Origin: Acidobacteriota bacterium
GTDB lineage: Bacteria; Acidobacteriota; Terriglobia; Bryobacterales; Bryobacteraceae
NCBI GenBank assembly: GCA_017307505.1
Contig: JAFKEE010000016.1
Location: 496,001 to 560,000, forward strand
Reading direction: 5' to 3'
Length of the DNA: 64,000 nucleotides
Shown piece by piece: positions 13,861-36,243 of the stretch. The position numbers were made by a program, and so were the translations under genes. The notes beneath the pieces are model-generated. The model was not told the DNA's origin, did no database searches, and saw only the letters and a list, made by a program, of their open reading frames with translations. Each line of letters opens with the position of its first letter. The first letter of the stretch is position 1.

Positions 13861-14883
13861 CTAGACGTGCACCAGCGTCCCCATCGCCTCATCAATGGCG
13901 ACATCCTGTGCGCCACCAGCGACCGAGGTTTCAAGATCGGGCATCACACCGCGGCCCTCCAGCATCTCGCCGCTCCAGGTGTACCAGGCGCGCGCCGGGA
14001 CGCGGACGAAGTAGCCGTGTCCGACCTTGTACGTGCTGGAACAGATCAGCCGACCTGCTGTCCGGGCTCCGACGATTGTCGCCAGGCCCCGTTCCTTCGC
14101 GAACGCTGCGATTCTCTCGCCGGCACCCGTCGTGGTCTCGTCAACGACAATCGCAATTCGACCATGGAACGGCTTCGGACCGAGACCCTCGGTGAGGATC
14201 GACACCGAATCGTCGCGGAAACCGAACTTGAGCGCCAAGAGCAGCAGACCGGCCTTCTTGGCCGGGATGAAGTCGAAAACCGGTAGGCTCTCCTTCGTGT
14301 AGCCCTTCTGCGCCCGCGCACGTGTCACGCTGTACCCGACCGGCAGCCTATCCGGAGTTAAATAGCTCATCACGCGCAGGAACGCCAACCCGCCGCCGGC
14401 GTTGCCGCGAAGGTCCAAGATAAGGCGGCTGCAGTCGCTCAACTGGGCAACGGCGTCGTCGATCTGCTTCGCGATATCGACCCCGACCGCACCTGGGAAT
14501 TTGGTGACCTTCAGCCACCCCACGCCGTCAGCGAGCTTCGACAAGAACACGTCTCCAGCCTCAGACGCCTGCGTGTAGGACGGCGCGCACTCATTGGGCT
14601 GGCAGTATTGAAAACGGGCCGAGATCCCTTTGGGGACCTTCTTCTTAGTGCTCTCGTGGAAGAATCCGGAATCGGGGGTTCCAACCGAGCGGACGAGCCG
14701 GTCCAGAGCCGAAACGAACGGCTCCGTGTTCGGCGCGTCCACTGCTGGCCTTCCCTGCTGTTCGACTTTGGCCCGCCAAGCCGCCGAATCAAATCTCGGG
14801 TCGTAGAACCGCTTCTCCACCGTCTCCGCTACGTTCTTCAGGATTTCTTGGCGTTCGGTCTTCCCAAGCTGGGTCATCATCAA
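13861..14883 (-). CDS. S41 (C-terminal processing) peptidase-like protein lacking catalytic serine
   Basis: 340 aa, no signal peptide. The tail-specific-protease fold is recognisable: RLILDLRGNAGGGLAFLRVM, then IAIVVDETTTGAGERIAAFA, then GLATIVGARTAGRL and LEGRGVMPDLE near the end. In active S41 enzymes the segment reads T-x-S-A-G/A-E with the nucleophile serine; here it is T-T-G-A-G-E, so glycine replaces serine. It may be a pseudo-protease that binds peptides or partner proteins, or the family may use another residue. It overlaps the CHAT gene by ATGA and is the last gene of the sigma/CHAT operon, suggesting a shared pathway. Fold confident; inactivity is inferred from motif alignment by eye. 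Confidence 0.82.
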   Translation of the reverse strand: MMMTQLGKTERQEILKNVAETVEKRFYDPRFDSAAWRAKVEQQGRPAVDAPNTEPFVSALDRLVRSVGTPDSGFFHESTKKKVPKGISARFQYCQPNECAPSYTQASEAGDVFLSKLADGVGWLKVTKFPGAVGVDIAKQIDDAVAQLSDCSRLILDLRGNAGGGLAFLRVMSYLTPDRLPVGYSVTRARAQKGYTKESLPVFDFIPAKKAGLLLLALKFGFRDDSVSILTEGLGPKPFHGRIAIVVDETTTGAGERIAAFAKERGLATIVGARTAGRLICSSTYKVGHGYFVRVPARAWYTWSGEMLEGRGVMPDLETSVAGGAQDVAIDEAMGTLVHV

Positions 14884-17525
14884 TCTCCTTCAATAGTTCC
14901 GTGAGGATCGCCGACCAGGCGGAACCCAGCCCAAAGGAATGGCTGAGCGTTCGATCCGTATTTCGCTAGTAGGTCTCGTTTGGCGAGCGTCAAGGCTTCT
15001 GCCTTATCGGCGCCGTTCTTCAGATGCTGGTAAAAGTTCCGCATCAACTCCGCCGTCGCGTTGTCCTCCGCGGCCCAAGTGCTGGCAACCACGGTCTTCG
15101 CGCCGGCCATTAGGAACGCTTGAACCAGGCTGTTCATGCCAGCCAGACCTTCGACTCTTCCGCTGCCCGCATCACACGCTGAAAGGGTCACCAAATTGGC
15201 ATTCAGAGGTAGGCTCAGGACTTCACGAGCTTGCAGCAACCCGTCTTGACCAGGCCCCGAGTTCTTTGCAAGACGAAGGGCGGAGCGGTCTGGAAACTGT
15301 TCATCAATACTGGCGTGAACTGCGAAGTGGATCGCGCGGTATTGTGCGAGATTTGCGGCCTTAACCGCCGTCTCCGTGGCGCTATCGCCGGTTAGCGCGT
15401 CCGCTCCGTCCACCGCCAGCGGCGTTATCGCTGCAATCTCTTTCGATGCGCCGGGCAACGCCGCAAGTGTTGGAGAGGCGTCAGCCTCGAACAAGTTTCC
15501 GCTTCTCAGGGCCATCCGCAACTTGTCGGTGGCCTGGTCACCTCCATAGCTGACGCCACCGACCGCCAGGAGCTCCTTACCCCGATGGCAGTGCTGACCG
15601 TGAACTGCCCGCGAGAGGAGAAAGTTGACCGATGCGGAGGGTGCGTAGGAGATGACAGCTCTGCTGACAAGAAGGGCTCCGGAGGCATCGACCAACGCGT
15701 CGAATGGTAGACCGTGAAGCGCTCCGTCCGGAACGATGACGATTCGGCGTGCAGACTGAGCTCCTGAGATCGGAGCCAGGAGCATTTGGTACAACTGCCT
15801 TGCCTGTTGAGCCACATCGCCAAGATCTTTGGCCGTCGCGATGTAGTGTTCTACAGCGCCTTCGATCAAGCGCCGTGGTGGCAAGACATAGCTCTTCACG
15901 TGACGCCGGCCAATCTCCAGCGCAAACGACCGGTCTTGGCCGAGAACGTACTCAAGGATAATTTCTTGAGGCTTGAGAATCGACTGAAGATCTCGGAGCC
16001 TGACGGGTTCCGGCGTGGGCAAATCCACAGGTTGCTGTGCCCGGTATTTGAATGACCGAACTTCCGTTTCCCAGAGCCTGTCCAGCAAGGACCGCCTGGT
16101 GGCGGGATTCGACTCAGAGGTAAGCCTCGTCTGCAATGCCACGAGTTGCGTCGAGTTGATCGTCGAGCCCAGCGGGACGTTTCCCTTCCGCGAACTGCGG
16201 ATCACTTCCAGTAGCCCCCGCGCCCTTGCCGCTTCGAGCACATGGAACGCCTTTGCGGGATCATTAAGCTGCAGCACCGAAAGCTCGAAGTGGCCGACGA
16301 AGACCCGGCCCATCGCACCGATGAGCGTACTTTTGTCCTTCGAGTAAGGAACCGTCTGGACCAGCTCGTCGATGAGCTTGCTCGCCTTGGCGAAGGTGCA
16401 ATCAGCCGCCTTCGTCTGACCGCTAGCAGCCTGAACCTCGGCGACGACGGCGAGTTTCTGCGGTAGGGCGTACGTGTCGCCCGCTCGCTCAGCTGCATCG
16501 ACACTCCGGTTCGCGTACGGCAGAGCGCCGCTAGCGCCATTCAACCTGAGCGCCACGTCAGCCAGTTTCGTCGTCACGTCCGACTCGATTCTGTACATTC
16601 CGGCCGCCGCGGCTATGTCTGCCGCCTGCTTCAGATCCTCGTACGCATCTTTCGGGCGGGACCCGTCCAGCAGATCGCCGAGCGTCGCCAGAATGCGCGC
16701 CTCGCGCACTCGATATCCCCGTTCGCGTGACGTCGCAAGTTCCCGTTCCAGCATTTGCTCAGCCTCGGACGCCTTCCCGGCTTCGGCGAGTAGTCTGGCC
16801 TTGCCGACGAATGCCGTGAACGGGAAGTACGCGCCTGGATTCTCCCGGTACAACCGAAGGGCGCGGTCGAAGAACTTCGTTGCATCAGGCTTACGGCCGA
16901 ATTTGCCCAAACCCTCTCCAAGAGCCGTGCTGTAGCGGATTCGTGATGCGGTATCGCCGTTGGCCTCGGCCTTGAGCGCTGCGCTGGACACGAGTTGCAG
17001 CGCGCGGACAACGTGGCCGTTAAGAAAGGCAATCGTCCCGAGTTCGCCGTCAGCCCGAGCCGCCCAGACGGAATCGCGGCGTTCGGAGGCGAGCCGACTC
17101 GCCTGCTGCCAGATCGACTCGGCCCCTTGCAGGTCGTACTGGAACAAGACATCGCCAAGCGCCGATAGGACCAGCAGCCGAAGTTCCGGATCAGCAATAG
17201 CCTCCCGCGTCGCCAGTAGGGCCCGTAGTTGCTCCGCAACGTCAGCCAGTCGGCCGGACTCAACCCTCCCTCGGAGCCTCACCGCGGAACAGAAGACCGT
17301 CGTCTTTTCGTCGCGCGGAAGTGCGGACCGTGCCTCCATTCGGCTGAGACGCTCCGCCGCATCTGCCCAGTTATTGAGCCAAACCAGGTGCTTAACGTAA
17401 TCGAGGGTGTCGGAATCAGGAACCGGAGGAGCGGCGCGCCTGCGTACGAGGGTGAAACTGGCGACAAGAACAAGAAGCCCCACGATTAGCGCAACGCCGA
17501 TACCTTTGGCCAGTCGGATTGACAT
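14880..17525 (-). CDS. Membrane-anchored TPR-CHAT caspase-like protease
   Basis: 881 aa. An N-terminal membrane segment (residues 8-28, GIGVALIVGLLVLVASFTLV) is followed by an alpha-helical TPR-like array (about 35-430) with repeated A-L/A-D-x pairs, then a C-terminal CHAT domain (about 560-875). The CHAT catalytic dyad is visible: His737 in HFAVHASIDE and Cys784 in TLSACDAGSG; the closing LWAGFRLVGDP is typical. CHAT proteins are clan CD proteases that cleave specific partners; in other systems the TPR part senses an activator. The topology puts most of the protein in either cytoplasm or periplasm. A TM-anchored protease in an operon with a TM-anchored anti-sigma-like protein suggests cleavage control of the sigma factor (inference). 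Confidence 0.88.
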   Translation of the reverse strand: MSIRLAKGIGVALIVGLLVLVASFTLVRRRAAPPVPDSDTLDYVKHLVWLNNWADAAERLSRMEARSALPRDEKTTVFCSAVRLRGRVESGRLADVAEQLRALLATREAIADPELRLLVLSALGDVLFQYDLQGAESIWQQASRLASERRDSVWAARADGELGTIAFLNGHVVRALQLVSSAALKAEANGDTASRIRYSTALGEGLGKFGRKPDATKFFDRALRLYRENPGAYFPFTAFVGKARLLAEAGKASEAEQMLERELATSRERGYRVREARILATLGDLLDGSRPKDAYEDLKQAADIAAAAGMYRIESDVTTKLADVALRLNGASGALPYANRSVDAAERAGDTYALPQKLAVVAEVQAASGQTKAADCTFAKASKLIDELVQTVPYSKDKSTLIGAMGRVFVGHFELSVLQLNDPAKAFHVLEAARARGLLEVIRSSRKGNVPLGSTINSTQLVALQTRLTSESNPATRRSLLDRLWETEVRSFKYRAQQPVDLPTPEPVRLRDLQSILKPQEIILEYVLGQDRSFALEIGRRHVKSYVLPPRRLIEGAVEHYIATAKDLGDVAQQARQLYQMLLAPISGAQSARRIVIVPDGALHGLPFDALVDASGALLVSRAVISYAPSASVNFLLSRAVHGQHCHRGKELLAVGGVSYGGDQATDKLRMALRSGNLFEADASPTLAALPGASKEIAAITPLAVDGADALTGDSATETAVKAANLAQYRAIHFAVHASIDEQFPDRSALRLAKNSGPGQDGLLQAREVLSLPLNANLVTLSACDAGSGRVEGLAGMNSLVQAFLMAGAKTVVASTWAAEDNATAELMRNFYQHLKNGADKAEALTLAKRDLLAKYGSNAQPFLWAGFRLVGDPHGTIEGD

Positions 17526-17632
17526 CGATACTGCTCCCGCCGACGGGCCGGACTCCTCGGCCTCACTCTACACGGGGGATCTCCTTGGGGCGAAAAAGAT
17601 GGTTCCTGAAGTAGACGCCTGCAGACGAAAAA
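17526..17632. other. Short gap inside sigma/CHAT operon
   Basis: 107 bp between the CHAT gene start and the stop of the zinc-finger gene. It carries a GGAG-containing stretch just before the CHAT ATG and no obvious terminator, so read-through from the sigma operon is likely. Confidence 0.35.
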
Positions 17633-18310
17633 CTATTCGAGAGTTGTCGGGAAAAAATGCCAGTCCTCACCCTCTCTCTTCAATGCTAGCTGGTACTGGC
17701 CAGCATGCAAGTCTGAAAGGGTCATTGGTGTGTGGATTGTTACCACCTGGTTCTCCAGAGCGGCACCGGCTTTCGTGGTGAAAACCGTTTCGAGTGAGCC
17801 GTTTACAAGCCGCAAATCGTACTGTCCTGGTTCGTACCCTATCGGAAGCAGAATATCGGCCCGGAGATCGCCTCGCGATAACTTGATCGGCGGGCGGGCG
17901 GGCGTCTGTGTCCCTCGGGTCACAAGGAAACTGCGTAGATCCAAGACAGCGATCTCGGGCCCGATCCTTCTCGGTTGGGCGTCATGCCGATTGAACCACC
18001 AAAAGCTGCTTACGGCTCCGATAACCAACAAGATGCCGGCTGCGATTGCGAGCAATTTGCCCCGCGCCTGTGGGTTCGGACGGTTCAAACCGTCTGCCTG
18101 AAACCGGCGAAACTGCTGGTAACACGGTGAGCAACGGGAAAGGTGCTCATATCCGGGATCGCTAATCGGCCGCGAACGCTGAGCAAGTTGTCGGAGAGTC
18201 TCCTCGGACAGGCAGTCCACGCGATCCGGGTTGGGACTGGCATTCTTGAAAAACCAGTCGACCTCCCGATCGACCGGGGTCTGGTCGCGCTCGCTGTCCT
18301 CCCTGCCCAT
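17633..18310 (-). CDS. Zinc-finger, single-pass membrane anti-sigma-like protein
   Basis: 225 aa from the ATG at 18310 (MGREDSERDQ), about 11 bases after GGGAG; longer starts would overlap the sigma gene. The N-terminal half holds HLSRCSPCYQQF, matching the HxxxCxxC core of zinc-binding anti-sigma (ZAS) domains. One transmembrane helix follows at about residue 95-115 (KLLAIAAGILLVIGAVSSFW). The remaining 110 residues form a beta-rich extracytoplasmic domain (ADILLPIGYEPGQYDLRLV). It lies directly downstream of an ECF sigma gene, the standard place for its antagonist. Sequestration of the sigma factor at the membrane is inferred from family and context. Confidence 0.8.
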   Translation of the reverse strand: MGREDSERDQTPVDREVDWFFKNASPNPDRVDCLSEETLRQLAQRSRPISDPGYEHLSRCSPCYQQFRRFQADGLNRPNPQARGKLLAIAAGILLVIGAVSSFWWFNRHDAQPRRIGPEIAVLDLRSFLVTRGTQTPARPPIKLSRGDLRADILLPIGYEPGQYDLRLVNGSLETVFTTKAGAALENQVVTIHTPMTLSDLHAGQYQLALKREGEDWHFFPTTLE

Positions 18311-18383
18311 CAAAATGTTCTCCCTCGCTTTACCGTGCGTAGGGTCCGGAACAATGCCCGCCATTATCGTCTTCCGCCTGGCA

Positions 18384-18932
18384 TCAGCATTCTCCCTGCG
18401 ACCCAAGCAACTTCTTCAGTTTGTGCCGCACACGAAAGTATGCCTGATCTATGGCGCGGTCGGTAGACCCCAACTGCTCCGCTATTTCAGCCGACGTGAA
18501 CTGGGCCACCTTCAGCAAGGCCACACGACGCTCCAATTCCGTTACTTGCGCAAGGGCCTGCTCGATGGCCAGACGTTCCTCTATCGCCGTTGCATGTTGA
18601 TCGGAACTCATATACGACATCAACCGCTCGCCTTCCTCGGACCCGATCGATTCTAGCTGCACCTTTGAGCGAGAGAGGCGCAGTTCTGAGACGCCGAGGT
18701 TGTGCAGCACTGTCCACGCGAAACCATGCAGGCTCTCGATAGGACCGGACTTCCGTTCTTTTTCTTTGATCCGCTGACCGGCTTGTTCGAGCAGTCCCGT
18801 AACCACGGCTTCGTCCTGCAATGGGAACCAGCGATTGAACCTGGGGAGGAGGTCGTGGAGGGCGCGCTGGATTCGTTCAGGAAGTGGTTGCCCGTCTGAG
18901 CCTACCAGCGGGATCTTTCTTCGCGACTTCAT
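18384..18932 (-). CDS. ECF-family RNA polymerase sigma factor
   Basis: 182 aa. Sigma region 2 is present with ESLHGFAWTVLHNLGVSELR (a -10 recognition-type helix), and region 4 with VTELERRVALLKVAQFTSAE followed by the helix-turn-helix IAEQLGSTDRAIDQAYFRVR. The size and two-domain layout are those of extracytoplasmic-function sigma factors. It is the first gene of an operon with a zinc-finger membrane protein, a TPR-CHAT protease and a pseudo-S41 protein. It is transcribed from a consensus-like sigma-70 promoter rather than an obvious ECF autoregulatory one, so activity is probably controlled after translation. The target regulon is unknown. Confidence 0.88.
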   Translation of the reverse strand: MKSRRKIPLVGSDGQPLPERIQRALHDLLPRFNRWFPLQDEAVVTGLLEQAGQRIKEKERKSGPIESLHGFAWTVLHNLGVSELRLSRSKVQLESIGSEEGERLMSYMSSDQHATAIEERLAIEQALAQVTELERRVALLKVAQFTSAEIAEQLGSTDRAIDQAYFRVRHKLKKLLGSQGEC

Positions 18933-18976
18933 GGTGTAGACTGCTCACCCTTCGCTCAGAAGAGCCCGAAGTCCCC

Positions 18977-19004
18977 AGTATAGACCGAACGCTCTCGATG
19001 TCAA
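18977..19004 (-). promoter_or_regulatory. Sigma-70-type promoter of the ECF/CHAT operon
   Basis: Read on the minus strand: TTGACA (19004-18999), a 16-bp spacer, then TATACT (18982-18977), a near-consensus pair. The transcription start would fall near 18970, leaving a leader of about 38 nt before the sigma ATG at 18932. It lies in the 128-bp divergent region shared with the 139-aa gene. Confidence 0.7.
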
Positions 19005-19060
19005 ATTCCGTAAGTTCTTGGGGCCACCAAAGCGTTCAGCTCAATAGGGAGGCGAAGGCA

Positions 19061-19480
19061 ATGGCGTCAAAGCCGGAAATATCGTCGTTCGATTCGTGGG
19101 ATTCTGCGGAATTGTTTGTAACTGAACAGCAGGTCGCATTCGGGATCTGCGAGGTGATCAGCGTTGGGGGGTGCGATGAGTTGCCGTATATATTCGAGAT
19201 CGTTGGCGGTCAGAAATTATCGTTCAGTCTCACCGCTTCTCATGAAGTCGATCTTGTTCTCTGCGACGAGGGTGCCTACGACGAATGGGTCGATGCTGGT
19301 CTCCAGACGCAGCATCCCGAGGATGCCCTGCTGACTCTACGGCATGCGTGTCAGCATTCGCTGGAATTCAGGCCGGAGCAGGACACGACCCTCATCGCGA
19401 TCATCATCAACCTCGCAGATCGTCCGGTGCAGTCCGTTGTAGCGGCGAACGTTCTCGACGCGGCCGGCCAGCCGTGCTGA
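19061..19480 (+). CDS. Orphan 139-aa protein divergent from the sigma/CHAT operon
   Basis: Start chosen at the ATG at 19061, preceded by AGGGAGG (19046-19052). I do not recognise the family. It has no signal or membrane segment and is acidic. It reads as beta-rich: YIFEIVGGQKLSFSLTASHE, then VDLVLCDEGAYDEWVD, then TTLIAIIINLADRPVQSVV. The pattern loosely recalls GOLD/PPC-type beta-sandwich accessory domains, but this is only an impression. Its divergent position next to the sigma factor makes it a candidate sensor, substrate or target of the CHAT pathway. Cysteines at several positions (ICEV, GGCDEL, LCDE) are notable. Confidence 0.6.
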   Translation: MASKPEISSFDSWDSAELFVTEQQVAFGICEVISVGGCDELPYIFEIVGGQKLSFSLTASHEVDLVLCDEGAYDEWVDAGLQTQHPEDALLTLRHACQHSLEFRPEQDTTLIAIIINLADRPVQSVVAANVLDAAGQPC

Positions 19481-26187: not shown

Positions 26188-27537
26188 TCACATTCGAAAC
26201 GGCCGATACGCAGCTTCGAACAGAAGATCCCGGTTCACCCGGACATTGAACCGGTATCCGACAGGGACTTTGATCGTCGGCTGCACGTTCAAATTGCGCC
26301 TGGTGACGTCAGCCCCGAGCCGTGAGAGCTCAGCCCCGACCGCGCTTCCGGCTGTCTCGCTGGCGGATGGATACCCGAGGACTCCGCCCCGATTAGACTG
26401 CGAGAGCCGGAAGGCCGCACTGAAACCGCTCGTTAGGACGGCAAAACCGAGGAGGCGGCGGTAGTGGTTATCCACATCCTGCCTGAGGCCAGCCCGTCCC
26501 TGCGCGTCTTGGCCAGCCATGCCTTCGAGGTCGATTGAGGACGCGTCCGGGAAGATGAGCCGATTCCAAACGACGGTGACACCGTTCTGCGCGTAGGCGA
26601 TCCGCGAATCGTAGGTGCCCACCAGGCGCGATCCTTGTGGGATCAGAAGGAAGTTGCCGGACGCCGTATCGTAGACATTCTCCCTGACAAGGGCGCGGAT
26701 CTCGCCCGGCAGGTCGGAATTGAGCCCTTGCTCCAGGACCGCGGGAATGTCCCACCCGGCTTTGATCTCGTATTTGCTCAACGGTCGAACCCGCGACGAT
26801 TTCGTGTAGTTCTCTCGCGTTTCTGCCCGTGCGCCCGCCAGAAATGCGGTCTTCCGGTCCTGCATGTTTTGGCTGGAGTACTCGTCTCCGTCTGCCGGAG
26901 CCGTGGTCAAAGCGATCTTCGCCTCGGAGCCGGAACCGCGCAGATTCACCGCTGCGCGCTGCGCCTCGGGTCCTTGCATCGTCTTGAGCAGCGTCGTCAT
27001 CTGTTCGATGTCTCCCTCTCGGGTGGGCAGTGAACTGCCGCCGGAGCGGCCAGCGCCGCCGAGGTTTCCGGCGATGGCCGTCGGCGCCGCGAGGGCATCG
27101 AGCTCCTGCCGGTACGCAGCGATGCGAGCCTTTTCCTCGGCGCTCAATTCCCGAACTGGCGAAGGCTGGGGCGGCGGCAGATAAGGACGCATTTGGGAAG
27201 GGGCTGAGCCGAGCGAGGGACGGCTCCCGGCCGGTTCGGGAACCTGCAACTCTTGCTTCTCCGGAGTCGCAGCGGTCATGCCGGCGGTAATCATCCTCGC
27301 CGGGACTTCGGCCGCGATCACCTTTCCCGCATCACTGGCCGCAGTGAGCCGCGTTGGATCGGCGCGTTCCATCGCCGCAGCAGTCCGTTGCCGTCGTGTC
27401 GCAATGCCGTATCCGACCAGGCCGACGACAGCGGTGACCACCACAAGCACGATGAGCCCGGCGCGCTTGCTCAGGCGTACGGGATTCGGCGGGTCCGGTC
27501 GGAGATCGATGCCGGTTGGAGAATCAATGTCGTTCAT
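26188..27537 (-). CDS. trbI: Conjugal transfer protein TrbI (VirB10-like)
   Basis: 449 aa from the ATG at 27537, which overlaps the trbG stop as ATGA; a longer open frame to 28143 is out-of-frame trbG sequence. Cytoplasmic N-terminus, one inner-membrane helix (AGLIVLVVVTAVVGLVGYGI, about 26-46), a proline-rich periplasmic linker (RPYLPPPQPSPVRELSAEE), then the beta-barrel domain (IPAVLEQGLNSDLPGEIRAL; GNFLLIPQGSRLVGTYDSRI; VGYRFNVRVNRDLLFEA). TrbI spans the envelope and transmits energy to the outer-membrane pore. Last trb core gene of the operon. Confidence 0.93.
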   Translation of the reverse strand: MNDIDSPTGIDLRPDPPNPVRLSKRAGLIVLVVVTAVVGLVGYGIATRRQRTAAAMERADPTRLTAASDAGKVIAAEVPARMITAGMTAATPEKQELQVPEPAGSRPSLGSAPSQMRPYLPPPQPSPVRELSAEEKARIAAYRQELDALAAPTAIAGNLGGAGRSGGSSLPTREGDIEQMTTLLKTMQGPEAQRAAVNLRGSGSEAKIALTTAPADGDEYSSQNMQDRKTAFLAGARAETRENYTKSSRVRPLSKYEIKAGWDIPAVLEQGLNSDLPGEIRALVRENVYDTASGNFLLIPQGSRLVGTYDSRIAYAQNGVTVVWNRLIFPDASSIDLEGMAGQDAQGRAGLRQDVDNHYRRLLGFAVLTSGFSAAFRLSQSNRGGVLGYPSASETAGSAVGAELSRLGADVTRRNLNVQPTIKVPVGYRFNVRVNRDLLFEAAYRPFRM

Positions 27538-28664
27538 TGGTTGGCCTCCACCTTGGCGTAGGGATCGCCTTTGACCTTCCCGTGGAAGGTGCCCCGGATG
27601 ATCTCTGCTTTCCGCGCCTGCTTGCCCGCGCCCAGAATGAGCGCCCCGCGTTCGAAGAGCCGGTCGACGATGTACATGTCGCCCTTCACGCGGTAGTTGA
27701 CCATTTCCGGACCTTTCGGCCCGACGATCACCAGCGCCGGCAATTCCCTCGGAGCGGCGTTCGGGGTCATTTGCAGGTACGTCTTCTTGCCGTCGTCCAC
27801 CACGCGAACTGGGCGCATGTTGGGGTCGCCCCCGATGACTCGATAATCGAAGTAGAGGGCCTCGATCGATTCGACTGGCGTGATCTGGGACGCTTCGAAC
27901 TCTTCCTTGCGGCGTGCTTCCTGCTCGGCCAGCCGCGCCTTCCAGCGACTCGTCTCGTCTTCCGGATACGCAAAGGCGACACGCGCGAGGTAATCGTCGG
28001 GCTTCGACACCAGCCGAAGGTAGTAGGCCCGTCTGTCCGTCGTGATCAGCAGTGTGGTGTCGAGGCCAGCCTGTTTGGGCTTGATGACGAGCATAGGCGT
28101 TTCCAGCCGACCGCTCCCGGCCATAGCCGGGGAAATTACCCAACGGACCGAATCGCCTACGTGAGGTTCGCCCGAGAGGTGCTCACCAGGTTCGAGTTCC
28201 ACGACGCAGACGCGCATCGGAGCGCAGACGACGGTCGGCATCCCCGCGCCAAACGTGTAGAGCACCCGGCCATCGGCGCCGGGCGCCGGCGTTTGCTTCT
28301 CAGCCATCCACCCTTTCGCGACGCTCAGCGCCGATTGCGCCGTCGACGGCAGAGCGACGTCTTTCGATGCACGGAAGTCCGAAGGGACCTCAGATGCAGA
28401 CGCGCTTCCCGTCGATGCCGGTGTGTTCGATACTCCGTTTCCGGCCTCGGCAGCGCCAACAGTCGGATCTGATCCGAGCGTCTGGATCAGTTGGCCGAAC
28501 GGAAACTTATCCGGCGCTGGGACGGGCTCTTTCGGCAGAGGCTTTGGTGGCGGAACCCGCTTCACTTCGACCGGCCCAGTCTTGCCATCTTTCGTTTGGG
28601 CACACATCGGCACGGCCACGAAAACCAAAGCCAGCGTGCATTGTTCAAGAATTCGAATTCGCAT
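27534..28664 (-). CDS. trbG: Conjugal transfer protein TrbG (VirB9-like)
   Basis: 376 aa with a signal peptide (MRIRILEQCTLALVFVAVPM). The body contains VLYTFGAGMPTVVCAPMRVC, LEPGEHLSGEPHVGDSVRW and LVIKPKQAGLDTTLLITTDR, the VirB9 N-domain signature. The C-terminal beta domain (YFDYRVIGGDPNMRPVRVVD; YRVKGDMYIVDRLFERGALI) contacts the outer-membrane core. A long low-complexity linker (about 65-110) follows the signal. It starts 11 bp after trbF and overlaps trbI. Confidence 0.93.
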   Translation of the reverse strand: MRIRILEQCTLALVFVAVPMCAQTKDGKTGPVEVKRVPPPKPLPKEPVPAPDKFPFGQLIQTLGSDPTVGAAEAGNGVSNTPASTGSASASEVPSDFRASKDVALPSTAQSALSVAKGWMAEKQTPAPGADGRVLYTFGAGMPTVVCAPMRVCVVELEPGEHLSGEPHVGDSVRWVISPAMAGSGRLETPMLVIKPKQAGLDTTLLITTDRRAYYLRLVSKPDDYLARVAFAYPEDETSRWKARLAEQEARRKEEFEASQITPVESIEALYFDYRVIGGDPNMRPVRVVDDGKKTYLQMTPNAAPRELPALVIVGPKGPEMVNYRVKGDMYIVDRLFERGALILGAGKQARKAEIIRGTFHGKVKGDPYAKVEANQ

Positions 28665-28675
28665 GTTTCAGCCCT

Positions 28676-29437
28676 TCACAGCACTTTCGACCAACTCAAA
28701 TTCGTCAGGTAAAGTCCGAGCGGATTCACGCGCGCCAGGCGTTCGTCGGACGGCGGGTTCACGGCAACCGTGAAGGAACCCTTCCACCTTTGTTCGGACT
28801 GGACATCGCCAGTGACGCCCCGCGCGGTCTCAACCCACTCCACTTCCCAGCTCTTGTCGCTACTCGCGTACACCGCCTTCACGTCCACGCTCACCATTTG
28901 CGTTTGCGCGCGCTTATAGGGCGGATCATTCCGGTAGTACTCGCTGACCTGAACTTGCGCCGGCGTTCCGCGTCCGATCATGGAGTACACACGATCAATC
29001 GCCTTGCGCTGGGCAACTCCGTCGCTGGTCACCGTTCGCCAATCGCTCACCCACTGAACGAGCGCGGCACGTTTCAGTCGATCGTCGGCCGCGGAGACCT
29101 GGTCGGCTGTTCCGGACGCGACAACACGACCGAGGCTATCGACGGCCACGACGAACGGGACCACCTTCGATCGCATGGCGAGCGCAACCAGGCCGCCGGT
29201 CTCAATCACGGCGATGCCGAGAGCCAGGAAAGCTGCGAAGCGCCAGTTCCGGGCGCGAGTGATCAGATTGCCGTACCGCTCATCCCACTCGCGGCGCGCC
29301 GCCAAATACGGGTTGAACGTGGTGGGTTCCGGGTTCGGCATTCTAGGGGCGCTCTGCTTAACGGGTTGTTCTGTTTCGAGGTTGTGCGGCACGAGCCGCG
29401 GAACTGCTTCTGTTGCCACGATGGCCCTCCTTTTCAT
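28676..29437 (-). CDS. trbF: Conjugal transfer protein TrbF (VirB8-like)
   Basis: 253 aa. Cytoplasmic N-terminus with NPYLAARREWDERYGNLITR, typical of TrbF, one membrane helix (WRFAAFLALGIAVIETGGLV), then a periplasmic NTF2-like domain (LVQWVSDWRTVTSDGVAQRK; VEWVETARGVTGDVQSEQRW). It is an inner-membrane assembly factor of the type IV secretion system. Its ATG overlaps the trbL stop (ATGA). A later start at MPNPEPTTF is possible, but the overlap favours the longer one. Confidence 0.92.
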   Translation of the reverse strand: MKRRAIVATEAVPRLVPHNLETEQPVKQSAPRMPNPEPTTFNPYLAARREWDERYGNLITRARNWRFAAFLALGIAVIETGGLVALAMRSKVVPFVVAVDSLGRVVASGTADQVSAADDRLKRAALVQWVSDWRTVTSDGVAQRKAIDRVYSMIGRGTPAQVQVSEYYRNDPPYKRAQTQMVSVDVKAVYASSDKSWEVEWVETARGVTGDVQSEQRWKGSFTVAVNPPSDERLARVNPLGLYLTNLSWSKVL

Positions 29438-30933
29438 TCCTCACCTTCCGATCTCAGAGTCGGCGGAGCGGTGTGCGGCGCGTGATCAGGCGGCACGGCT
29501 GAACGAGCCATCCGCACGAATTGAGTTCCGACAGTCAACTTCCGCGAAACCCGGTTTGTTGCTTCGCTTGCACGCGCGAGTCGGCCGGCTACCGGCTTCG
29601 ACTTCCCAGCCGCTGATGGGGGACTGACCTGGCCCGGCGTGCCCGAAGCCTTAGCGCCACTTGCTGAAGGTCCAGCGGAGTTCGTGCCTTCACCTTGAGC
29701 GGCTTGCTGCTTTCCTGAGTCGCTCCCCTCGCCGGACGAACTTGCAGTCGAAGTCGAATTTGCGGCCGGCTCGGCAGTCGAACTCGCGGTAGACGGCGGG
29801 GACACCTGGCCACTGGGTCCGGATGGACTGGCAGCCGCACCGCCGCCGCTACCGCCAGGTCTGGGCGATGGACCACCACTCGAACCGCCCGAGGTTGCCG
29901 GGCCCGCGGACCCGAATCCGCCACCCATCCCGCCACCGGATGCAGCTCCCCCAGCTCCGAGCCCCGCAGCTTGGCCGGCCGTCATCGCGCCACCTTTCGC
30001 GGCGAGCATCTTCGCGCCAAGCGCAACACCGCCTGCTGCTGCCGCGCCCACCAGCAATGCGCCTTGCGCCAATCCTCCCGCGGTCCCCACAGCATCGCCA
30101 CCTGTGAAGGATGGCGACCCGCCGAGAATGCTCGCGGCCAACTTCGGCGCATTCCAGCAGATCATCAGCAGGATCACAGCGGAAGCAGCGATATCCAGCG
30201 CATCGACGGCTGGAGATGGACTGCCCGGAACTGCGGTAGCCGCTGCTTCCCAGGTGTTCGTCAATGCCATGCCCGCGCCAAGAAGCAGATACAGAACCAT
30301 CACCTTCACGCCCGTGGAGACCGCGAAGGCAATGAAACGTTCGACATACGGAGCGGTCCAGCGAGAACCGCCGAAGCCAAGAAAGATGAAGCCCGCGCCG
30401 ACGACGAGATAGCTTTCGACCAGCGTTACGACCAGTTGAACCGTGAGCCCCAGGAACGCGAGGAACGCGAGCAAGGCGGCGAACACCAGAGCCAGAGCCG
30501 TCCCGAAGCTCCCCATCCAACCGGAGTTGGCGGCTCCGCTCAGAAGATTACCGGCGATATTTAGACCACGCACCAGGACGTCGGTGGGAGCCAAAGAGGG
30601 CAGACCAGAGGCCGACTGCCCGACAATCTGGAAGCTTTCGATGATCCGCGGAATCCAGTCAGCGCCGAAATTCAACAGGGCGAAGAACGCGCCGATGAAC
30701 ATCATTTTCCGAATCAGAGCCGCGGTCCAACCTTGCAGATCGGTGCGCTCCAGAACGAGCATTGCGCCGGTCCACGCGAACTCGATCAGCGCTAACAGGC
30801 CGAACAGACGATTTGCATACCCGGCGGCGACAGTTAGCCAAGTGCCGCGAACCGCTCGATACTGATCGAGCATGGCGCTGGGCGAGGTTTGCGCCCAGGC
30901 GGAATTGGCGGTAAGGAGAACAATCGAGGCCAA
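29434..30933 (-). CDS. trbL: Conjugal transfer protein TrbL (VirB6-like)
   Basis: About 499 aa. The frame is open far upstream, but the protein-like part begins with a signal-like segment (ASIVLLTANSAWAQTSPSA), so I place the start at a TTG at 30933; this start is uncertain. It is a polytopic inner-membrane channel protein with five to six hydrophobic segments between about residues 30 and 270 (LFGLLALIEFAWTGAMLVLE; LALVFAALLAFLAFLGLTVQ). The long C-terminal tail is Gly/Ser/Ala-rich and probably disordered (about 330-480), as in other TrbL proteins. It follows trbK and overlaps trbF. Confidence 0.88.
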   Translation of the reverse strand: MASIVLLTANSAWAQTSPSAMLDQYRAVRGTWLTVAAGYANRLFGLLALIEFAWTGAMLVLERTDLQGWTAALIRKMMFIGAFFALLNFGADWIPRIIESFQIVGQSASGLPSLAPTDVLVRGLNIAGNLLSGAANSGWMGSFGTALALVFAALLAFLAFLGLTVQLVVTLVESYLVVGAGFIFLGFGGSRWTAPYVERFIAFAVSTGVKVMVLYLLLGAGMALTNTWEAAATAVPGSPSPAVDALDIAASAVILLMICWNAPKLAASILGGSPSFTGGDAVGTAGGLAQGALLVGAAAAGGVALGAKMLAAKGGAMTAGQAAGLGAGGAASGGGMGGGFGSAGPATSGGSSGGPSPRPGGSGGGAAASPSGPSGQVSPPSTASSTAEPAANSTSTASSSGEGSDSGKQQAAQGEGTNSAGPSASGAKASGTPGQVSPPSAAGKSKPVAGRLARASEATNRVSRKLTVGTQFVRMARSAVPPDHAPHTAPPTLRSEGEE

Positions 30934-30967
30934 GGCGACGAGCCATTCGGCTCGCCGGGGAAATGCG

Positions 30968-31291
30968 CTACTTGGTGCCCGCGCCGAATCCGCGCCCGTC
31001 GCCTTTGCGTGGGGTGAACTGGAACACCGTGGCCGCGCTGGCGGCTTTGCACACGCGCCCTTCTGTGGAGTCTCCCCATGTGGCAGGTGCGCTCTGTTGG
31101 ATCGGTGCGCAGCGCCCCTTGATCTCGTTAGCGATGTCGGCGTGCTGCCGGAACCATTGTTCCAGTGATTGTTGCGAAGCCGAGCGAACATCGCCCGCAC
31201 CAGCGTTCTGGACGCGCTGGACGATCTCACTGGGACGCTCCTGCGTACAGCTCGCCAGTAAAACAAAAAGCAGAAGGCACGTGAGCTTCAT
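30968..31291 (-). CDS. trbK: TrbK-like small lipoprotein (entry-exclusion candidate)
   Basis: 107 aa from the ATG at 31291, giving MKLTCLLLFVLLASCTQERP: a lipoprotein signal with lipobox LASC, so Cys15 would be lipidated after cleavage. The mature part (QSLEQWFRQHADIANEIKGR; FQFTPRKGDGRGFGAGTK) contains two further cysteines (GRCAPI, RVCKAA). Its place between trbJ and trbL matches TrbK of IncP plasmids, which blocks entry of a second related plasmid. Sequence similarity to TrbK is weak by eye; position and lipobox carry the call. Confidence 0.75.
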   Translation of the reverse strand: MKLTCLLLFVLLASCTQERPSEIVQRVQNAGAGDVRSASQQSLEQWFRQHADIANEIKGRCAPIQQSAPATWGDSTEGRVCKAASAATVFQFTPRKGDGRGFGAGTK

Positions 31292-31298
31292 CCCTCCA

Positions 31299-32012
31299 TC
31301 ATCGACCAGCTTGGAAGCCTCTGCCATCGCCGGTTCTTCCGCCGAATTGAAAGTATCTTTCCGTACCTGCTTCTTCAGAGGCTTGCTTCTGAATCTGCGC
31401 GGCTTGGTACGCCTGTTTGCTTTGAAGATCCGCGAGGATCAACTGCCGGAGCTTCATCAACTGCTGAACCTGCTGCTCCATGATCTGGTTCGAGACCTGA
31501 AGCGCCTTCATCCGGCCGTCACTGGATTGGGCCATGGTCCGCAGCTGGTCGAGCACCGCCTGTTCGCTGGCGAGTTGTTGACCTTGCAGACCCGCGGCAC
31601 GCAGAGTGCCCAGCGTCGTGTCCAGACTTGTCTGTGACCAGTCGCGGTAGTCCCTAAACCAGGTATTCGCGTTGTAGCCGTACCCGCGGAATCGATTGCG
31701 GAACTCGGCGTCAAGGTTCGCCATTGAGTAGGCGAGCGCGCGCCCGTTCTGGACCACTGAAGCAAGTCGGCTGATATCGCCCATGATCGGGCCGAAGACC
31801 TGCATCGGCAGGTTGAGCGAGTTCTTCGACATGTCCGCCACCATCAGAATCTTCTGCCGCAGTTCTTCACCTTGGCGGATGTAGGAATTGATGAGTTGGA
31901 GATTATTGGCGAGTTGCGTCCACTCCGTCGCAAACCCGCCGACAACTCCGGAATTCCCCGTTCCAGGCAGCGCGAGAGCCGCCGCAAATATCAAAAAACG
32001 CCTGCGAATCAT
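31299..32012 (-). CDS. trbJ: Conjugal transfer protein TrbJ (VirB5-like)
   Basis: 237 aa with a short signal peptide (MIRRRFLIFAAALALPGTGN). The mature protein is helical: ATEWTQLANNLQLINSYIRQ is the TrbJ hallmark (TQLLNN-type), followed by a glutamine-rich coiled region (VSNQIMEQQVQQLMKLRQLI). It is a minor pilus component exported to the periplasm. The ATG overlaps the trbE stop by ATGA, and trbK starts 7 bp later. Confidence 0.92.
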   Translation of the reverse strand: MIRRRFLIFAAALALPGTGNSGVVGGFATEWTQLANNLQLINSYIRQGEELRQKILMVADMSKNSLNLPMQVFGPIMGDISRLASVVQNGRALAYSMANLDAEFRNRFRGYGYNANTWFRDYRDWSQTSLDTTLGTLRAAGLQGQQLASEQAVLDQLRTMAQSSDGRMKALQVSNQIMEQQVQQLMKLRQLILADLQSKQAYQAAQIQKQASEEAGTERYFQFGGRTGDGRGFQAGR

Positions 32013-34462
32013 TGCTCACCTCCTACCGTGTACTTTTCTTCGAGATACGCTGCCCATTCGGGCAGACCACGCATGCGCAGCCATTCTGCCGGCCACTGCT
32101 CCCCGTGGATTTCGATTACATCCTCCAGTTGCTGTCGCTCCTCCCGCCCGTTCACGCCGACGAATGACAGCGCGACGCCACCGAGGCCGAGCGCGATCAT
32201 CCTGCGGCCGATCGGCGAGACGACGTAGTACTGCCGCTTCGGGATGCTCTTCTGGACCATCTCGACCTCGCGGTCATTCAGTCCGATGGATTCATAGAAC
32301 TGCCTCGATGCAGGGTTGGCTGCCTCGGCGTTCGGAAGCAGGATCTTCGTCGGGCAAGATTCCAATACGACATCGCGGATCGGACTGTTGAAGATGTCCG
32401 ATAGATTCTGCGTCGCGAGCAGCACCGCGCCGTTGAACTTCCTGAGAGTCTTGAGCCAATCCCGCACCCGCTCCCGAAAGAGCGGATGCCGGAGGTAAAC
32501 CCACGCTTCGTCGAGCGGCACCAGAGTCGGGGAACCATCGAGCCGCTTCTCGATCCGCCTGAACAAGTAGAGAAGGACCGCGACGACAGCCTTTTCGCCA
32601 AGGTTCATCAGGTGCTCCGTCTCGAACGTCAAGAATCGGCCGTCGCCGAGCATGTCCTGGTCTGCATCGAGCAGATGCCCCATCGCGCCGGCGAGCGTGT
32701 AGTATTGCAGCGCTTCGCGAACTTCGGTGTCTTGTACGTTCGCTGATAGCTCCGTAAGGGTTCGGGTGGGCGAGTTCTGGAGCAGGATCACGGCTTCGGT
32801 CAGGGCGTTGCGCTCGCGGGGACTCACTTTGAAGTCCTGCAACGCGCAGAGGCCTTCCAGCCAGTCAACGGCCCACGCTACGTCCGCCGGAGTGTCGATC
32901 TCTTTCAAGGGGCAGAACGCCCAGGCCGTCCTTTCCCCGCCGATATCGTAGAATTCGCCGCCTGCCGCAGAGGTGAGCGCCATCAGCGAGTAGCCCTTGT
33001 CGAATGCAAAAACCTGGGCGCGCGGATAACGGAACCACTGCGCCGTGATTGCCCCGAGGCACGTCGATTTGCCCGAACCCGGAGGTCCGACCATCAGCGT
33101 GTGACCGAGATCGCCGACATGCAAATTGAGACGGAATGGAGTCGCACCGGTCGTAGCCGCGAACATAAGCGGCGGACTCTTTGCCGGCATCAACGGTGAA
33201 GGGTTCTTCCTGGAACCGGCCCAGACCGCCGTAATCGGCATCATGTCGGCCAGGTTCAGGGTGTGCAGGATCACTCGACGAGCGTTCCGGTACCCATCAC
33301 CAGGCAGGCTACCCCGCCAGGCTTCGAGCGCGTTCACCGACTCAATTCGACAGGCAAAGCCGAGATTCTGAATCGTTTTCACCACGAGAGCCGCCGATTC
33401 CTCGAGACGGCTCTGATCCGTGTCGAAGACGAGGATCAGTGTGGTGAAGAGACAAAACTGAACATCGCCGGAGGCGGCAACGCTCATCGCTTCCTCAGCG
33501 TCGGCCGCCATCTCCTGGGCGTAGAGGTTTGTGGGACCGGTTTCGGTCCGCAGCAACTGATCCTTCCAGCCGCGCACCTTCGAGCGCCACTTGCGCCTGG
33601 TCTTGTCCAAAAGCCCACGAGCCTCTTCTGGGTCCAGGAGGATCGCCCGCGTGTGCCACCGGTATTCGATGGCGAGGTTGTCGACCGCCCCCAGAATGCC
33701 GGGGAAGCTCGCCCGCGGAAAACCGTCAACTGCTATCGCCCGGAGATGCTTCGTCCCGATCTTCGGTGCGATCCCTCCGACGAGATCTTGCGTGCCCAGC
33801 AGGTCGTTGAGGTAAGCGGGTACCGCGGGGAGTTCGATTGGGTGATCTGCCATCGTTACGCATCGGTGCACGTAGCGCAGAAGATCGTCCTGGACGTGGG
33901 GAAAACCGGCGGCGTCGGCGAAACGCCTGCCCTTGAGGCGACGGACCTGAAAGAGCGAGCCGAACAGGTCTTCAAACGAAGCGACGCGGCTCTTGAAGTA
34001 CTCAAGTGTCTTCTGAGCACCGGACTTGATCTGCCGTTGTCCCTCGAAGAGAAAGCCTTTTACGCGCTCCTCATGCTGCTCGGGTGGCAGGTACGTCAAT
34101 GCAAGGAAGTATTCGCTTTCGAAATGCACGCCTTCGGCCATGAACTGTTCCCGGCGCTCTTCGTCGATGAGCGCCGTCACCAGGTCCGGAAATGCGCCGG
34201 CTTCCGGGTAACCGGGAGCCTTTGATCGGATGGCGTCACACTGAACCATCCAGCCGCCGCCTAGTCGGAGCACCGTATTCAACCGGGCGCTCAGCGCCGC
34301 CATCTCGGCGTGCGTTGCCGACGCCATGTCGGGGCCACGGAAGGTCCAAGCTGCCAGGAGAGCTCCGTCCTGGAGCAGCAGAACGCCATCGTCAATCATG
34401 GAGTCGTATAGGAGCAGGTCAGCCAGACCGCGTGCGCCAGCTCGATGCTCAGTGATCTGCAC
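32009..34462 (-). CDS. trbE: Conjugal transfer ATPase TrbE (VirB4-like)
   Basis: 817 aa. Cytoplasmic energiser of the mating apparatus. N-terminal CagE/TrbE domain (LLLYDSMIDDGVLLLQDGAL), then the RecA-like ATPase with Walker A VGPPGSGKSTCLGA (about 467) and Walker B TLVPLDEAWVYLRHPLF (about 645), and the arginine/glutamine sensor VLLATQNLSDIFNSPIRDV. Full-length and intact. It starts 4 bp after trbD and overlaps trbJ. Confidence 0.95.
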   Translation of the reverse strand: MQITEHRAGARGLADLLLYDSMIDDGVLLLQDGALLAAWTFRGPDMASATHAEMAALSARLNTVLRLGGGWMVQCDAIRSKAPGYPEAGAFPDLVTALIDEERREQFMAEGVHFESEYFLALTYLPPEQHEERVKGFLFEGQRQIKSGAQKTLEYFKSRVASFEDLFGSLFQVRRLKGRRFADAAGFPHVQDDLLRYVHRCVTMADHPIELPAVPAYLNDLLGTQDLVGGIAPKIGTKHLRAIAVDGFPRASFPGILGAVDNLAIEYRWHTRAILLDPEEARGLLDKTRRKWRSKVRGWKDQLLRTETGPTNLYAQEMAADAEEAMSVAASGDVQFCLFTTLILVFDTDQSRLEESAALVVKTIQNLGFACRIESVNALEAWRGSLPGDGYRNARRVILHTLNLADMMPITAVWAGSRKNPSPLMPAKSPPLMFAATTGATPFRLNLHVGDLGHTLMVGPPGSGKSTCLGAITAQWFRYPRAQVFAFDKGYSLMALTSAAGGEFYDIGGERTAWAFCPLKEIDTPADVAWAVDWLEGLCALQDFKVSPRERNALTEAVILLQNSPTRTLTELSANVQDTEVREALQYYTLAGAMGHLLDADQDMLGDGRFLTFETEHLMNLGEKAVVAVLLYLFRRIEKRLDGSPTLVPLDEAWVYLRHPLFRERVRDWLKTLRKFNGAVLLATQNLSDIFNSPIRDVVLESCPTKILLPNAEAANPASRQFYESIGLNDREVEMVQKSIPKRQYYVVSPIGRRMIALGLGGVALSFVGVNGREERQQLEDVIEIHGEQWPAEWLRMRGLPEWAAYLEEKYTVGGEQ

Positions 34463-34466
34463 TCGT

Positions 34467-34778
34467 TTACCTCCAACTCTGGGGCGTCGTTATCGACCGC
34501 CCATGTATTGCAGCCTTCGCCGGATAGAAGGGCCGGTACCGCAGATGACGCAGGTAGACCTGCCGCAGGAGGGGATCTGCCTTTCCCATTCGGCTCAGAA
34601 TGGCGATCGACAGGAACCAAAGCACGATGCCAGTCAGCACGCCCCACCAGGTCACGAGCGCGAAGATCAGCATCGCGGAAAGCAAAGCCGAAAACAGCAC
34701 CAGTTCTCGATCGCCCCCAAGTAGCAGATGGGGGCGGTTTGCGCTTTGATGAATTACGACCTCCCGCGGCTTGTCCAT
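34467..34778 (-). CDS. trbD: Conjugal transfer protein TrbD (VirB3-like)
   Basis: 103 aa. VIHQSANRPHLLLGGDRELV is the typical TrbD opening, followed by one long hydrophobic hairpin (LFSALLSAMLIFALVTWWGV; GIVLWFLSIAILSRMGKADP). The conserved tail DPLLRQVYLRHLRYRPFYPA is present. It is an inner-membrane partner of TrbE. It lies 7 bp after trbC. Confidence 0.93.
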   Translation of the reverse strand: MDKPREVVIHQSANRPHLLLGGDRELVLFSALLSAMLIFALVTWWGVLTGIVLWFLSIAILSRMGKADPLLRQVYLRHLRYRPFYPAKAAIHGRSITTPQSWR

Positions 34779-34785
34779 AGCGCCC

Positions 34786-35103
34786 CTAAATGACCGTGGC
34801 TCCGCCGACGCCGAACAGACTCGTCATGAAGCCGGCCCCGAGCACGAGGAAGGCAATCGCCAGCACGGCCACGCAGGACCGCCGCGCGAACTCGCTCAGT
34901 TCGCCGCCGAACACAAGGGTTCCACCGGCCACCATAAGGGCGATCAATGAAATGGAAAGAGCTACGGGTCCCGTCAGTGACTGAGCCACCGTGTTGAGCG
35001 GAGTCTCCCACGGGAGTCCGCCGCCACCGCCGCCCGCCCATGCTGCGCGGCTTGCCAGCAGGAAGAGCGGAGCCAGCATCGTTCGCTTGAAGAGTGAGTT
35101 CAT
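34786..35103 (-). CDS. trbC: Conjugal pilin precursor TrbC (VirB2-like)
   Basis: 105 aa from the ATG at 35103, preceded by GGAGGT at 5 bases; a longer frame overlapping trbB is not needed. A long signal sequence (FKRTMLAPLFLLASRAAWAG) precedes a mature part with two hydrophobic helices (SLTGPVALSISLIALMVAGG; SCVAVLAIAFLVLGAGFMTS), the pilin fold. In IncP the product is cyclised by the peptidase TraF, also encoded in this window. Confidence 0.92.
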   Translation of the reverse strand: MNSLFKRTMLAPLFLLASRAAWAGGGGGGLPWETPLNTVAQSLTGPVALSISLIALMVAGGTLVFGGELSEFARRSCVAVLAIAFLVLGAGFMTSLFGVGGATVI

Positions 35104-35125
35104 TCGTACCTCCAAATGGATTCGG

Positions 35126-36172
35126 TCAGACATACTCGACCAGGTAACGGCCTTGGTCGTACCCGGTCACTACGAGCAGCTCCCGCACTTTTCGGCCAGC
35201 TGCCAAACTTGATTCCTCGTCGATGAAGATCACCAGATCGACGGCTTCGGCGATGAGACTTTGCTGGGGTGCGCTGGTCGCCTCGGCTACGAGGGATTCC
35301 AGTCGCACGAGCCCGCTGAGGGCATCGTTGGCGTGAATTGTCGCCACTCCGCCCGGATGCCCCGTATTCCAGCTCTTGAGCATTACGTGGGCCTCGGCCC
35401 CGCGAACCTCGCCCACTACGATTCGGGTCGGCTTCAGGCGCATGCAGGCTCGGAGACAATCGAGCATGGTCACGCCGGCAACGGCCCGAAGGTCAACGTA
35501 GTTCTCGACAGGACACTGCAACTCCATCGTGTCCTCGATCGTGATGACCCGGTCCGATGGGGAGATCCGGGCGACGGCTTCCAAAATGGCGTTCACGAGG
35601 GTAGTCTTACCGGAGCCCGTTGAGCCGACGATCAGGATGTTCCTTCGATCCCGGATGGCCGTCCGAATCACTTCGCCATGGCTTAGGCCGCGGACCGTTT
35701 CCGCAAAGGAACGTCGCGTGTGTTGCGCGTTCCGAGGATCTGAACAGCAGCTCAGAATGTCGCCGGCCTCGTAGTCCTCCAACGTGAACACCCGGCGGGG
35801 TCGGAGGCGGATGGCAAAAATGGGACGCCGGACGACCGGCGGCACGATTCCCTCGAACCGGCTCCCGTCCACTGGAAGTTCCGTCTCCAGGATGGGGCGG
35901 TCGTAGTTTGCGACGGTGCCGCGCTGTGCGGCAATTGTTCCGATCGCGGCCTGAGCCTGGGCAGCGAACATCTCGCCCGCGACGGCGAATCCCATCCCCT
36001 GCCGCTTCACCCACAGGCGCCCGTCTGGGTTGAGAACGATGTCCTCGGTCCGGACATCGTCTAGCGCCGACAGGACAGTGTCGCCCAGTTCGCGCCTCAG
36101 TTTGGCGTCGAGGCGGGCACGGTGATCCGCCGATTCCAGAACCAAGCGCCCATTTGCCCCTTGACTGTTCAT
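35126..36172 (-). CDS. trbB: Conjugal transfer ATPase TrbB (VirB11-like)
   Basis: 348 aa hexameric secretion ATPase. RLDAKLRRELGDTVLSALDD opens the N-domain; Walker A LIVGSTGSGKTTLVNAIL (about 180), the Asp box RVITIEDTMELQ, Walker B-type PTRIVVGEVRGAEAHVML and the His box NTGHPGGVATIHAND are all present. First gene of the trb operon. The ICE operator directly abuts the ATG and no Shine-Dalgarno is visible, so the mRNA may be nearly leaderless. Confidence 0.94.
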   Translation of the reverse strand: MNSQGANGRLVLESADHRARLDAKLRRELGDTVLSALDDVRTEDIVLNPDGRLWVKRQGMGFAVAGEMFAAQAQAAIGTIAAQRGTVANYDRPILETELPVDGSRFEGIVPPVVRRPIFAIRLRPRRVFTLEDYEAGDILSCCSDPRNAQHTRRSFAETVRGLSHGEVIRTAIRDRRNILIVGSTGSGKTTLVNAILEAVARISPSDRVITIEDTMELQCPVENYVDLRAVAGVTMLDCLRACMRLKPTRIVVGEVRGAEAHVMLKSWNTGHPGGVATIHANDALSGLVRLESLVAEATSAPQQSLIAEAVDLVIFIDEESSLAAGRKVRELLVVTGYDQGRYLVEYV

Positions 36173-36218: not shown

Positions 36219-36243
36219 CTGCAAATCGCAAGGAGTGGCCCAC

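Follow-up and report, generated by a model that had tools for sequence, protein, structure and literature searches.

Comparison of loci across the Acidobacteriota shows that genes predicted to encode an ECF-like sigma factor (SIG), a membrane zinc-finger protein resembling anti-sigma factors (ZF), a TPR-CHAT caspase-like protease and an S41B-like peptidase form a conserved module, which in the window (the whole stretch of 64,000 nucleotides analysed here; loci and genomes are numbered with the prefixes L and G) lies within an integrative conjugative element. We tentatively read the module as a sigma/anti-sigma switch that spans the envelope and is carried along by Acidobacteriota conjugative elements, a reading that we hold to be quite possible though still short of probable. 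The parts are of known kinds, and their combination with conjugation seems new as far as the literature was searched; no description of the module was recognised among the open-access matches listed, subscription papers lying outside that scope.

All five genes named in the preliminary description of this region are present as open frames (open reading frame list and family scans). On the minus strand the order is sigma, ZF, TPR-CHAT and S41, and a gene for a 139-aa protein (19061..19480, plus strand) faces the opposite direction. The sigma factor (182 aa, 18384..18932) combines sigma region 4 with an ECF architecture; it matches Pfam Sigma70_r4_2 above the Pfam cut-off (E 7.6e-7) and the NCBIfam model sigma70-ECF (TIGR02937) slightly under that model's own cut-off (E 5e-11, 42.5 bits for a cut-off of 42.9). 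According to homologue alignments and a structure model, ZF (17633..18307) has a single TM helix and the motif C-x22-H-x3-C-x2-C; its likely start is the ATG at 18307, with a GGGAG site recognised by eye, and the open frame extends to 18406. The TPR-CHAT protease (881 aa, 14880..17525) begins with a hydrophobic segment and matches the Pfam CHAT domain with E 5.8e-63, and the S41B-like peptidase homologue (13861..14880; Pfam S41 E 4.1e-24, and alignments) is degenerate in the window. The S41 ATG at 14880 overlaps the CHAT stop by one base (TGATG), which corrects the ATGA overlap reported before. One promoter had been said to drive the operon, and a single sigma70-like promoter (TTGACA-16-TATACT, 11 of 12 matches; 18977..19004, minus strand) does lie upstream of sigma; its count in the region (one, vs a mean of 0.6 in shuffles) is, however, not significant by itself.

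Seven aligned S41 proteins (one peptide pattern) served to scan a collection of 84,980 species; of the 144 relatives that this gave, 80 were kept (L034-L113). By title all 80 are Acidobacteriota, some of the genus names being ones that we take to belong to this phylum. Another 17 loci came from a draw of 396 genomes of this phylum; adding the window and three paralogues to these and the 80 gives 101 S41 loci, two pairs of which have identical S41 ends. Of these loci 93 have CHAT, 89 of them no more than 200 bp from S41 and 86 on the same strand, and seven of the eight loci that lack it are shorter than 12 kb. ZF was found in the stretch of 66/101 loci, or 42/50 when only loci of at least 15 kb are considered; at most 200 bp separate it from S41 or CHAT in 35 loci, and the distance exceeds 1.2 kb in 27. 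Of the 396 genomes drawn, 18 have S41 (E up to 1e-40), and 34 have ZF at E up to 1e-8, 17 at E up to 1e-40. These strong ZF matches, by a cut that was set post hoc with the list already inspected, fall in 15 of the 18 S41-positive genomes vs 2 of the 378 others (Fisher p 2e-22); G181, G211 and G330 are the S41-positive genomes without one, and S41 and ZF are 110 kb apart in G428 and on different contigs in G419. Since the gene set recurs across the Acidobacteriota, well beyond close strains, it is not a product of chance.

The four genes are co-directional in the window, L049, L050, L051 and L111, and in many loci CHAT-S41 is a unit of its own, convergent with ZF-SIG. The latter arrangement is also found in L013 of the same genome as the window (C17:579-586 kb), which has all five genes, the small one again divergent; this genome holds three additional S41 copies and nine additional CHAT matches. 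SIG-ZF-CHAT operons without S41 in the stretch are seen in L014, L201 and L202, the last two of which were scanned for type IV secretion system (T4SS) genes and have none in the stretch either. Variable cargo separates CHAT-S41 from ZF-SIG in L054, L057, L070, L164 and others; it comprises an SbcCD-like pair, SIR2-like plus NTPase, HATPase plus AlbA-like, and efflux genes, several of them assigned by inspection. L015 (C49 of the window genome, 4677-6374) encodes a 565-aa fragment without a CHAT domain, which by eye looks almost the same as the initial part of the L011 CHAT paralogue (C49:76 kb).

Gene content marks the window as an integrative conjugative element, with T4SS, VirD4, integrase and, by way of DUF3363, a probable relaxase in one stretch. 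The T4SS genes VirB11, VirB4, VirB6, VirB8, VirB9 and VirB10 (26188..36172, minus strand; Pfam T2SSE, CagE_TrbE_VirB, TrbL, VirB8, CagX, TrbI) are separated by 62 bp, at VirB11, from a RepB-type primase (36235..37113; Pfam RepB_primase E 1e-34), and this is followed, likewise on the plus strand, by a DUF3363 protein that we take to be the probable relaxase (42656..43939; E 8.8e-11), ArdC (52430-53902; family scan), the coupling protein VirD4 (53905-56007; E 5.6e-101) and a tyrosine integrase (58319-59488; family scan). Consecutive genes of the left arm of the element (128-9631) encode a type III R-M pair (res, mod), a C5 cytosine methylase and an SNF2 helicase, and to the right of the module lies a 1586-aa HATPase-helicase resembling the defence proteins TmtA and MkoA (20230-24990). 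About 7 kb lie between the module and the nearest T4SS gene, and no module stands at the junction between RepB primase and VirB11; a palindrome seen there by eye (GCTAGCTTGTACAAGCTAGC, window 36060-36330) is a possible repressor operator for the T4SS. A tRNA-Leu(GAG) gene of the same genome (C17:477856-477942; L174 1857-1943), followed at 0.8 kb by AbiEi/AbiEii-like genes and then, farther downstream, by the element, is a candidate integration site; the stretches searched for the element ends held no exact repeat of the tRNA-Leu of at least 15 bp, and the right end may lie elsewhere.

Genes of such elements also accompany the module in its relatives. Among S41 loci of at least 15 kb they were found in 16/36 named and 8/13 phylum-drawn loci vs 0/20 control stretches (p 4e-5), a comparison in which the controls come from four window relatives, in genomes different from those of the test loci, and which is biased toward the test set by queries taken from the window element and relatives, some of them test loci; over loci of every length the counts are 23/80 and 9/17. 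In 8 of the 18 genomes a VirD4 gene shares the contig and is no more than 60 kb away. Three genomes, of 3, 2 and 4 contigs, have the module on contigs of 115, 128 and 137 kb, respectively; these sizes, together with the T4SS genes, may indicate plasmids, and a search of PLSDB with one S41 and the window ZF gave no match.

A T4SS match occurs in 17 of the loci scanned, 13 of which have a called sigma gene, and in 11 of the 13 this gene is head-to-head with the first called T4SS gene (0-1167 bp apart), the other two, L034 and L062, having a lone T4SS-like match 6.7 and 9.9 kb away. With L161, L177 and L198-L200 the head-to-head arrangement is found in 16 loci outside the window, five of which (L157-L161) form two groups of near relatives. 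L198-L200 are all three strong-ZF loci of the two genomes without S41; CHAT and S41 are absent from 8 to 9 kb downstream in L199 and L200, and L198 is clipped by the contig end. L177 belongs to the window genome (C30:84000-103000), and its ZF next to sigma is a fragment with a stop. The orientation is identical in all 16 cases, with T4SS operons that start with VirB11 or with VirB3, the latter preceded by a pilin-like gene (by inspection). On a ZF tree of 72 rows, including 14 of the 16 loci, the T4SS label needs nine changes, a possible overcount as the rows labelled 'other' include short contigs hiding any T4SS; at least four are forced by well-supported branches. ZF lies within 5 kb of only 7/57 VirB4 matches (at most two per genome), so a T4SS can do without the module, and all 20 stretches upstream of VirB4 that were sampled from the 50 without ZF also lack a sigma gene. 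As judged from these gene arrangements, the SIG-ZF pair is therefore an optional companion of the T4SS with a fixed orientation.

From gene adjacency we infer that ZF binds and inhibits sigma, in line with the antagonist role suggested earlier for the membrane zinc-finger protein: a protein predicted to be anti-sigma-like adjoins an ECF-like sigma factor. The H-x3-C-x2-C motif is kept in 51/53 ZF homologues and a TM-like segment in 53/53 (in L013 the strongest such segment falls within the outer domain), and the four zinc-ligand columns are invariant in one set of 30 aligned sequences, as are C32, H55, C59 and C62 in one of 28. The structure model (mean pLDDT 88.7) places helices at 51-56 and 60-74 and an outer beta-sandwich of about 120 aa. 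ZF thus shares with the zinc-binding class I anti-sigma factors (ASDI), as characterised in PMC7406223, the motif across two helices, an N-terminal helical domain, a TM helix and an adjacent sigma gene. Unlike them, it has a conserved outer beta-sandwich of its own and matched no Pfam anti-sigma or zinc-finger model among 30 members at E 0.01. Foldseek matches of the model are mostly Ig-like and phage-baseplate proteins (best E 5.9e-4), with no anti-sigma factor among the best 50 matches listed. A ZF homologue in L026/L062 is without H-x3-C-x2-C and retains the TM segment and outer domain.

The His737/Cys784 dyad of the window CHAT, described as intact, is confirmed, and in a family alignment of 77 rows the Cys is present in 77 and the His in 76. 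In the S41 alignment (87 rows, four repeating another row) 79 rows retain the catalytic Ser, 77 the His and 85 the Glu; at the position that we take to be that of the CtpA-type Lys, 76 rows have Arg and 6 have Lys. The window copy, one of eight rows without Ser, has Gly in place of Ser and Asp in place of His, and lacks about 70 residues that form a PDZ-like stretch in relatives, its His-to-DLRG spacing being 86 residues vs 155 in L013 and L034; the sole other row with a spacing below 130 is L093 (118; His column empty). The serine-less S41 of the preliminary description is thus real for the window and an exception in the family, and a pseudo-enzyme as a family trait is ruled out, since Ser stands in 79/87 rows. 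By these alignments CHAT is the protease that the set retains, and the dead window S41 appears as a local loss, partly seen in a few others. The best PDB match of S41 is RBP3 (E 1.6e-47); the Ser-His-Glu layout of most members and the PDZ-like stretch resemble S41B-like peptidases (tricorn, IRBP/RBP3) and CtpB, from which the family differs by its pairing with CHAT, the Arg at the CtpA-type Lys position, a non-hydrophobic N-terminus (85 of 86 proteins) and the dead window copy.

Topology was judged for CHAT, ZF and S41 by simple scores rather than a trained predictor. Among 63 CHAT proteins of at least 830 aa not truncated at a locus end, 56 pass the hydrophobicity cut at the N-terminus, 45 have a signal-peptidase-like motif after this segment and 57 show an N-in charge bias, the window copy being one of six with the opposite bias (flank charges 2 vs 3, contrary to the N-in rule). 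Since most CHAT proteins have such a signal-like or anchor segment, they probably sit outside the cytoplasm, whereas Csx29 is cytosolic; S41 is predicted to be usually cytosolic. Given this topology, the outer domain of the anti-sigma factor would be the most likely place for a cut by CHAT, as with DegS and RseA.

The preliminary description had drawn a parallel with the TPR-CHAT/sigma logic of type III-E CRISPR systems (CASP/Craspase: Csx29, which is a TPR-CHAT protein, Csx30 and CASP-sigma; PMC10028731). The likeness of parts stands, with a TPR-CHAT protease bearing a His/Cys dyad, an ECF-like sigma factor and a putative sigma restrainer in one locus. However, the restrainer is a membrane zinc protein rather than Csx30, from which it is set apart by description, the module is linked to conjugation, and most CHAT proteins look exported and S41 does not, so the parallel is a loose one. 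The window CHAT was rejected as a member of Csx29 (14.7 bits, cut-off 300). PADLOC gave no Cas match of note for six window proteins (sigma: CARF match, 15.5 bits), and no Cas gene was recognised among the window proteins scanned. The regulated proteolysis of membrane anti-sigma factors, as in RseA/DegS/RpoE (described in part in PMC10028731), offers a membrane anti-sigma factor with an outer domain, an ECF sigma factor and, as the counterpart of the protease co-encoded here and predicted outside the cytoplasm, a trypsin-like PDZ protease instead of a caspase-like CHAT. By analogy, a DegS/RseA-like cut in the outer domain fits better than the type III-E parallel.

The 139-aa protein had been called an orphan. 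It is indeed divergent from sigma, but the label is ruled out by homologues, which stand in the same divergent position in eight loci, all belonging to one subtype (window, L013, L021, L022, L034, L038, L043, L044; the first two from one genome, L044 clipped at the contig end). An AlphaFold2 model from four sequences shows a confident beta-sandwich from about residue 31, with pLDDT below 50 for nearly all residues 1-26, and its top match in the PDB is the TMED1 GOLD domain (Foldseek E 2.2e-5, rmsd 2.0, 8% identity; TM-score 0.82 on target, 0.60 on query), PPC-like beta-sandwiches being also among the matches. We model it as a GOLD-fold protein that shares the fold of p24/TMED domains and, unlike these, is a stand-alone bacterial protein of low identity. 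In other loci its position is occupied by a Myb/HTH-like protein (HTHB), without a Pfam match above cut-off. A protein family of about 320 aa, encoded in L105 (1053-2015) and six other loci, occurs near Myb/HTH-like genes, the one member scanned having no Pfam match.

Drawing on predicted topology and folds, we infer binding, cleavage, signal and regulon as follows. At rest the anti-sigma factor would keep sigma at the membrane; an envelope signal (e.g., T4SS assembly, mating contact or envelope damage) would reach CHAT through its TPRs, and CHAT, as site-1 protease, would cut the outer domain of the anti-sigma factor as DegS cuts RseA. Host proteases, perhaps with cytosolic S41, would remove the remainder, and the released sigma would drive the divergent gene, be it the T4SS operon, the GOLD protein or the Myb/HTH-like protein. 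In the window the module is cargo of the element, apart from its T4SS and with a dead S41, which would leave the task to CHAT and host proteases. This complete chain, in which a TPR-CHAT site-1 protease cuts a membrane zinc anti-sigma factor on an envelope or mating signal and frees an element sigma for transfer machinery or its GOLD/HTH stand-ins, all without CRISPR, is rather unlikely to hold as a whole. Several observations speak against the switch. In the window the sigma operon has a sigma70-like promoter, the module is divergent from the GOLD gene and about 7 kb off the T4SS, and the CHAT flank charges run contrary to the N-in rule. Few VirB4 matches (7/57) have ZF nearby, L201 and L202 have SIG-ZF-CHAT with neither S41 nor T4SS in the stretch (L014 likewise is without S41), and PLSDB held no match. 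Inspection by eye of the regions upstream of SIG, CHAT and T4SS revealed no shared promoter element.

The left arm of the window element and its HATPase-helicase, which put type III R-M, a C5 methylase, an SNF2 helicase and a TmtA/MkoA-like protein on the element, would suit a defence or cell-death cargo in which the sigma pair senses damage or phage, CHAT (with S41) is the executioner and the element is a mere carrier, and so would the LmuA/ThsA-like, TmtA-like, PD-T4-6-like and AbiU-like proteins encoded between S41 and ZF in relatives. We find this rather improbable: an exported CHAT would be an odd intracellular executioner, PADLOC has no match for CHAT, S41, ZF or the GOLD protein, the slot between S41 and ZF also holds genes that by inspection resemble efflux and metabolic genes, and 64 control proteins matched many PADLOC models as well (62 families, vs 110 for the 64 slot proteins). 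Defence enrichment of the slot genes was accordingly dropped, many PADLOC models having matched the controls too. If CHAT and S41 were instead outputs, induced by a sigma that another sensor frees and acting to remodel envelope proteins, their frequent occurrence as a separate convergent unit would be expected, as would L199 and L200 with SIG-ZF beside the T4SS and neither protease downstream; the five loci with four co-directional genes argue against it, as does the lack of any sigma-dependent promoter recognised by eye upstream of CHAT, and we regard it as unlikely. Inspection by eye of the regions upstream of SIG, CHAT and T4SS revealed no shared promoter element.

A common insertion site could account for the head-to-head placement, and it is conceivable, if very unlikely, that module and T4SS merely occupy one insertion hot spot while sigma serves host envelope-stress genes unrelated to transfer. 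The junction between RepB primase and VirB11, empty in the window, carries the module inserted between the two genes in L098 and L113, and the absence of SIG from all 20 sampled T4SS stretches without ZF is consistent with it; an orientation that is constant in 16 cases, whether the T4SS operon begins with VirB11 or VirB3, is not what this explanation would lead one to expect.

TPR-CHAT proteases are widespread in bacteria and, to our knowledge, few have a known substrate. The conserved set points to the anti-sigma factor as a candidate substrate and to the divergent operon, which in some lineages is that of the T4SS, as a candidate output, and it suggests a likely topology; with candidates named, the cleavage target of CHAT becomes directly testable. 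If this reading is right, a caspase-like proteolytic switch would govern conjugation in a large soil phylum, and the output of type III-E CRISPR systems would have a non-CRISPR counterpart.
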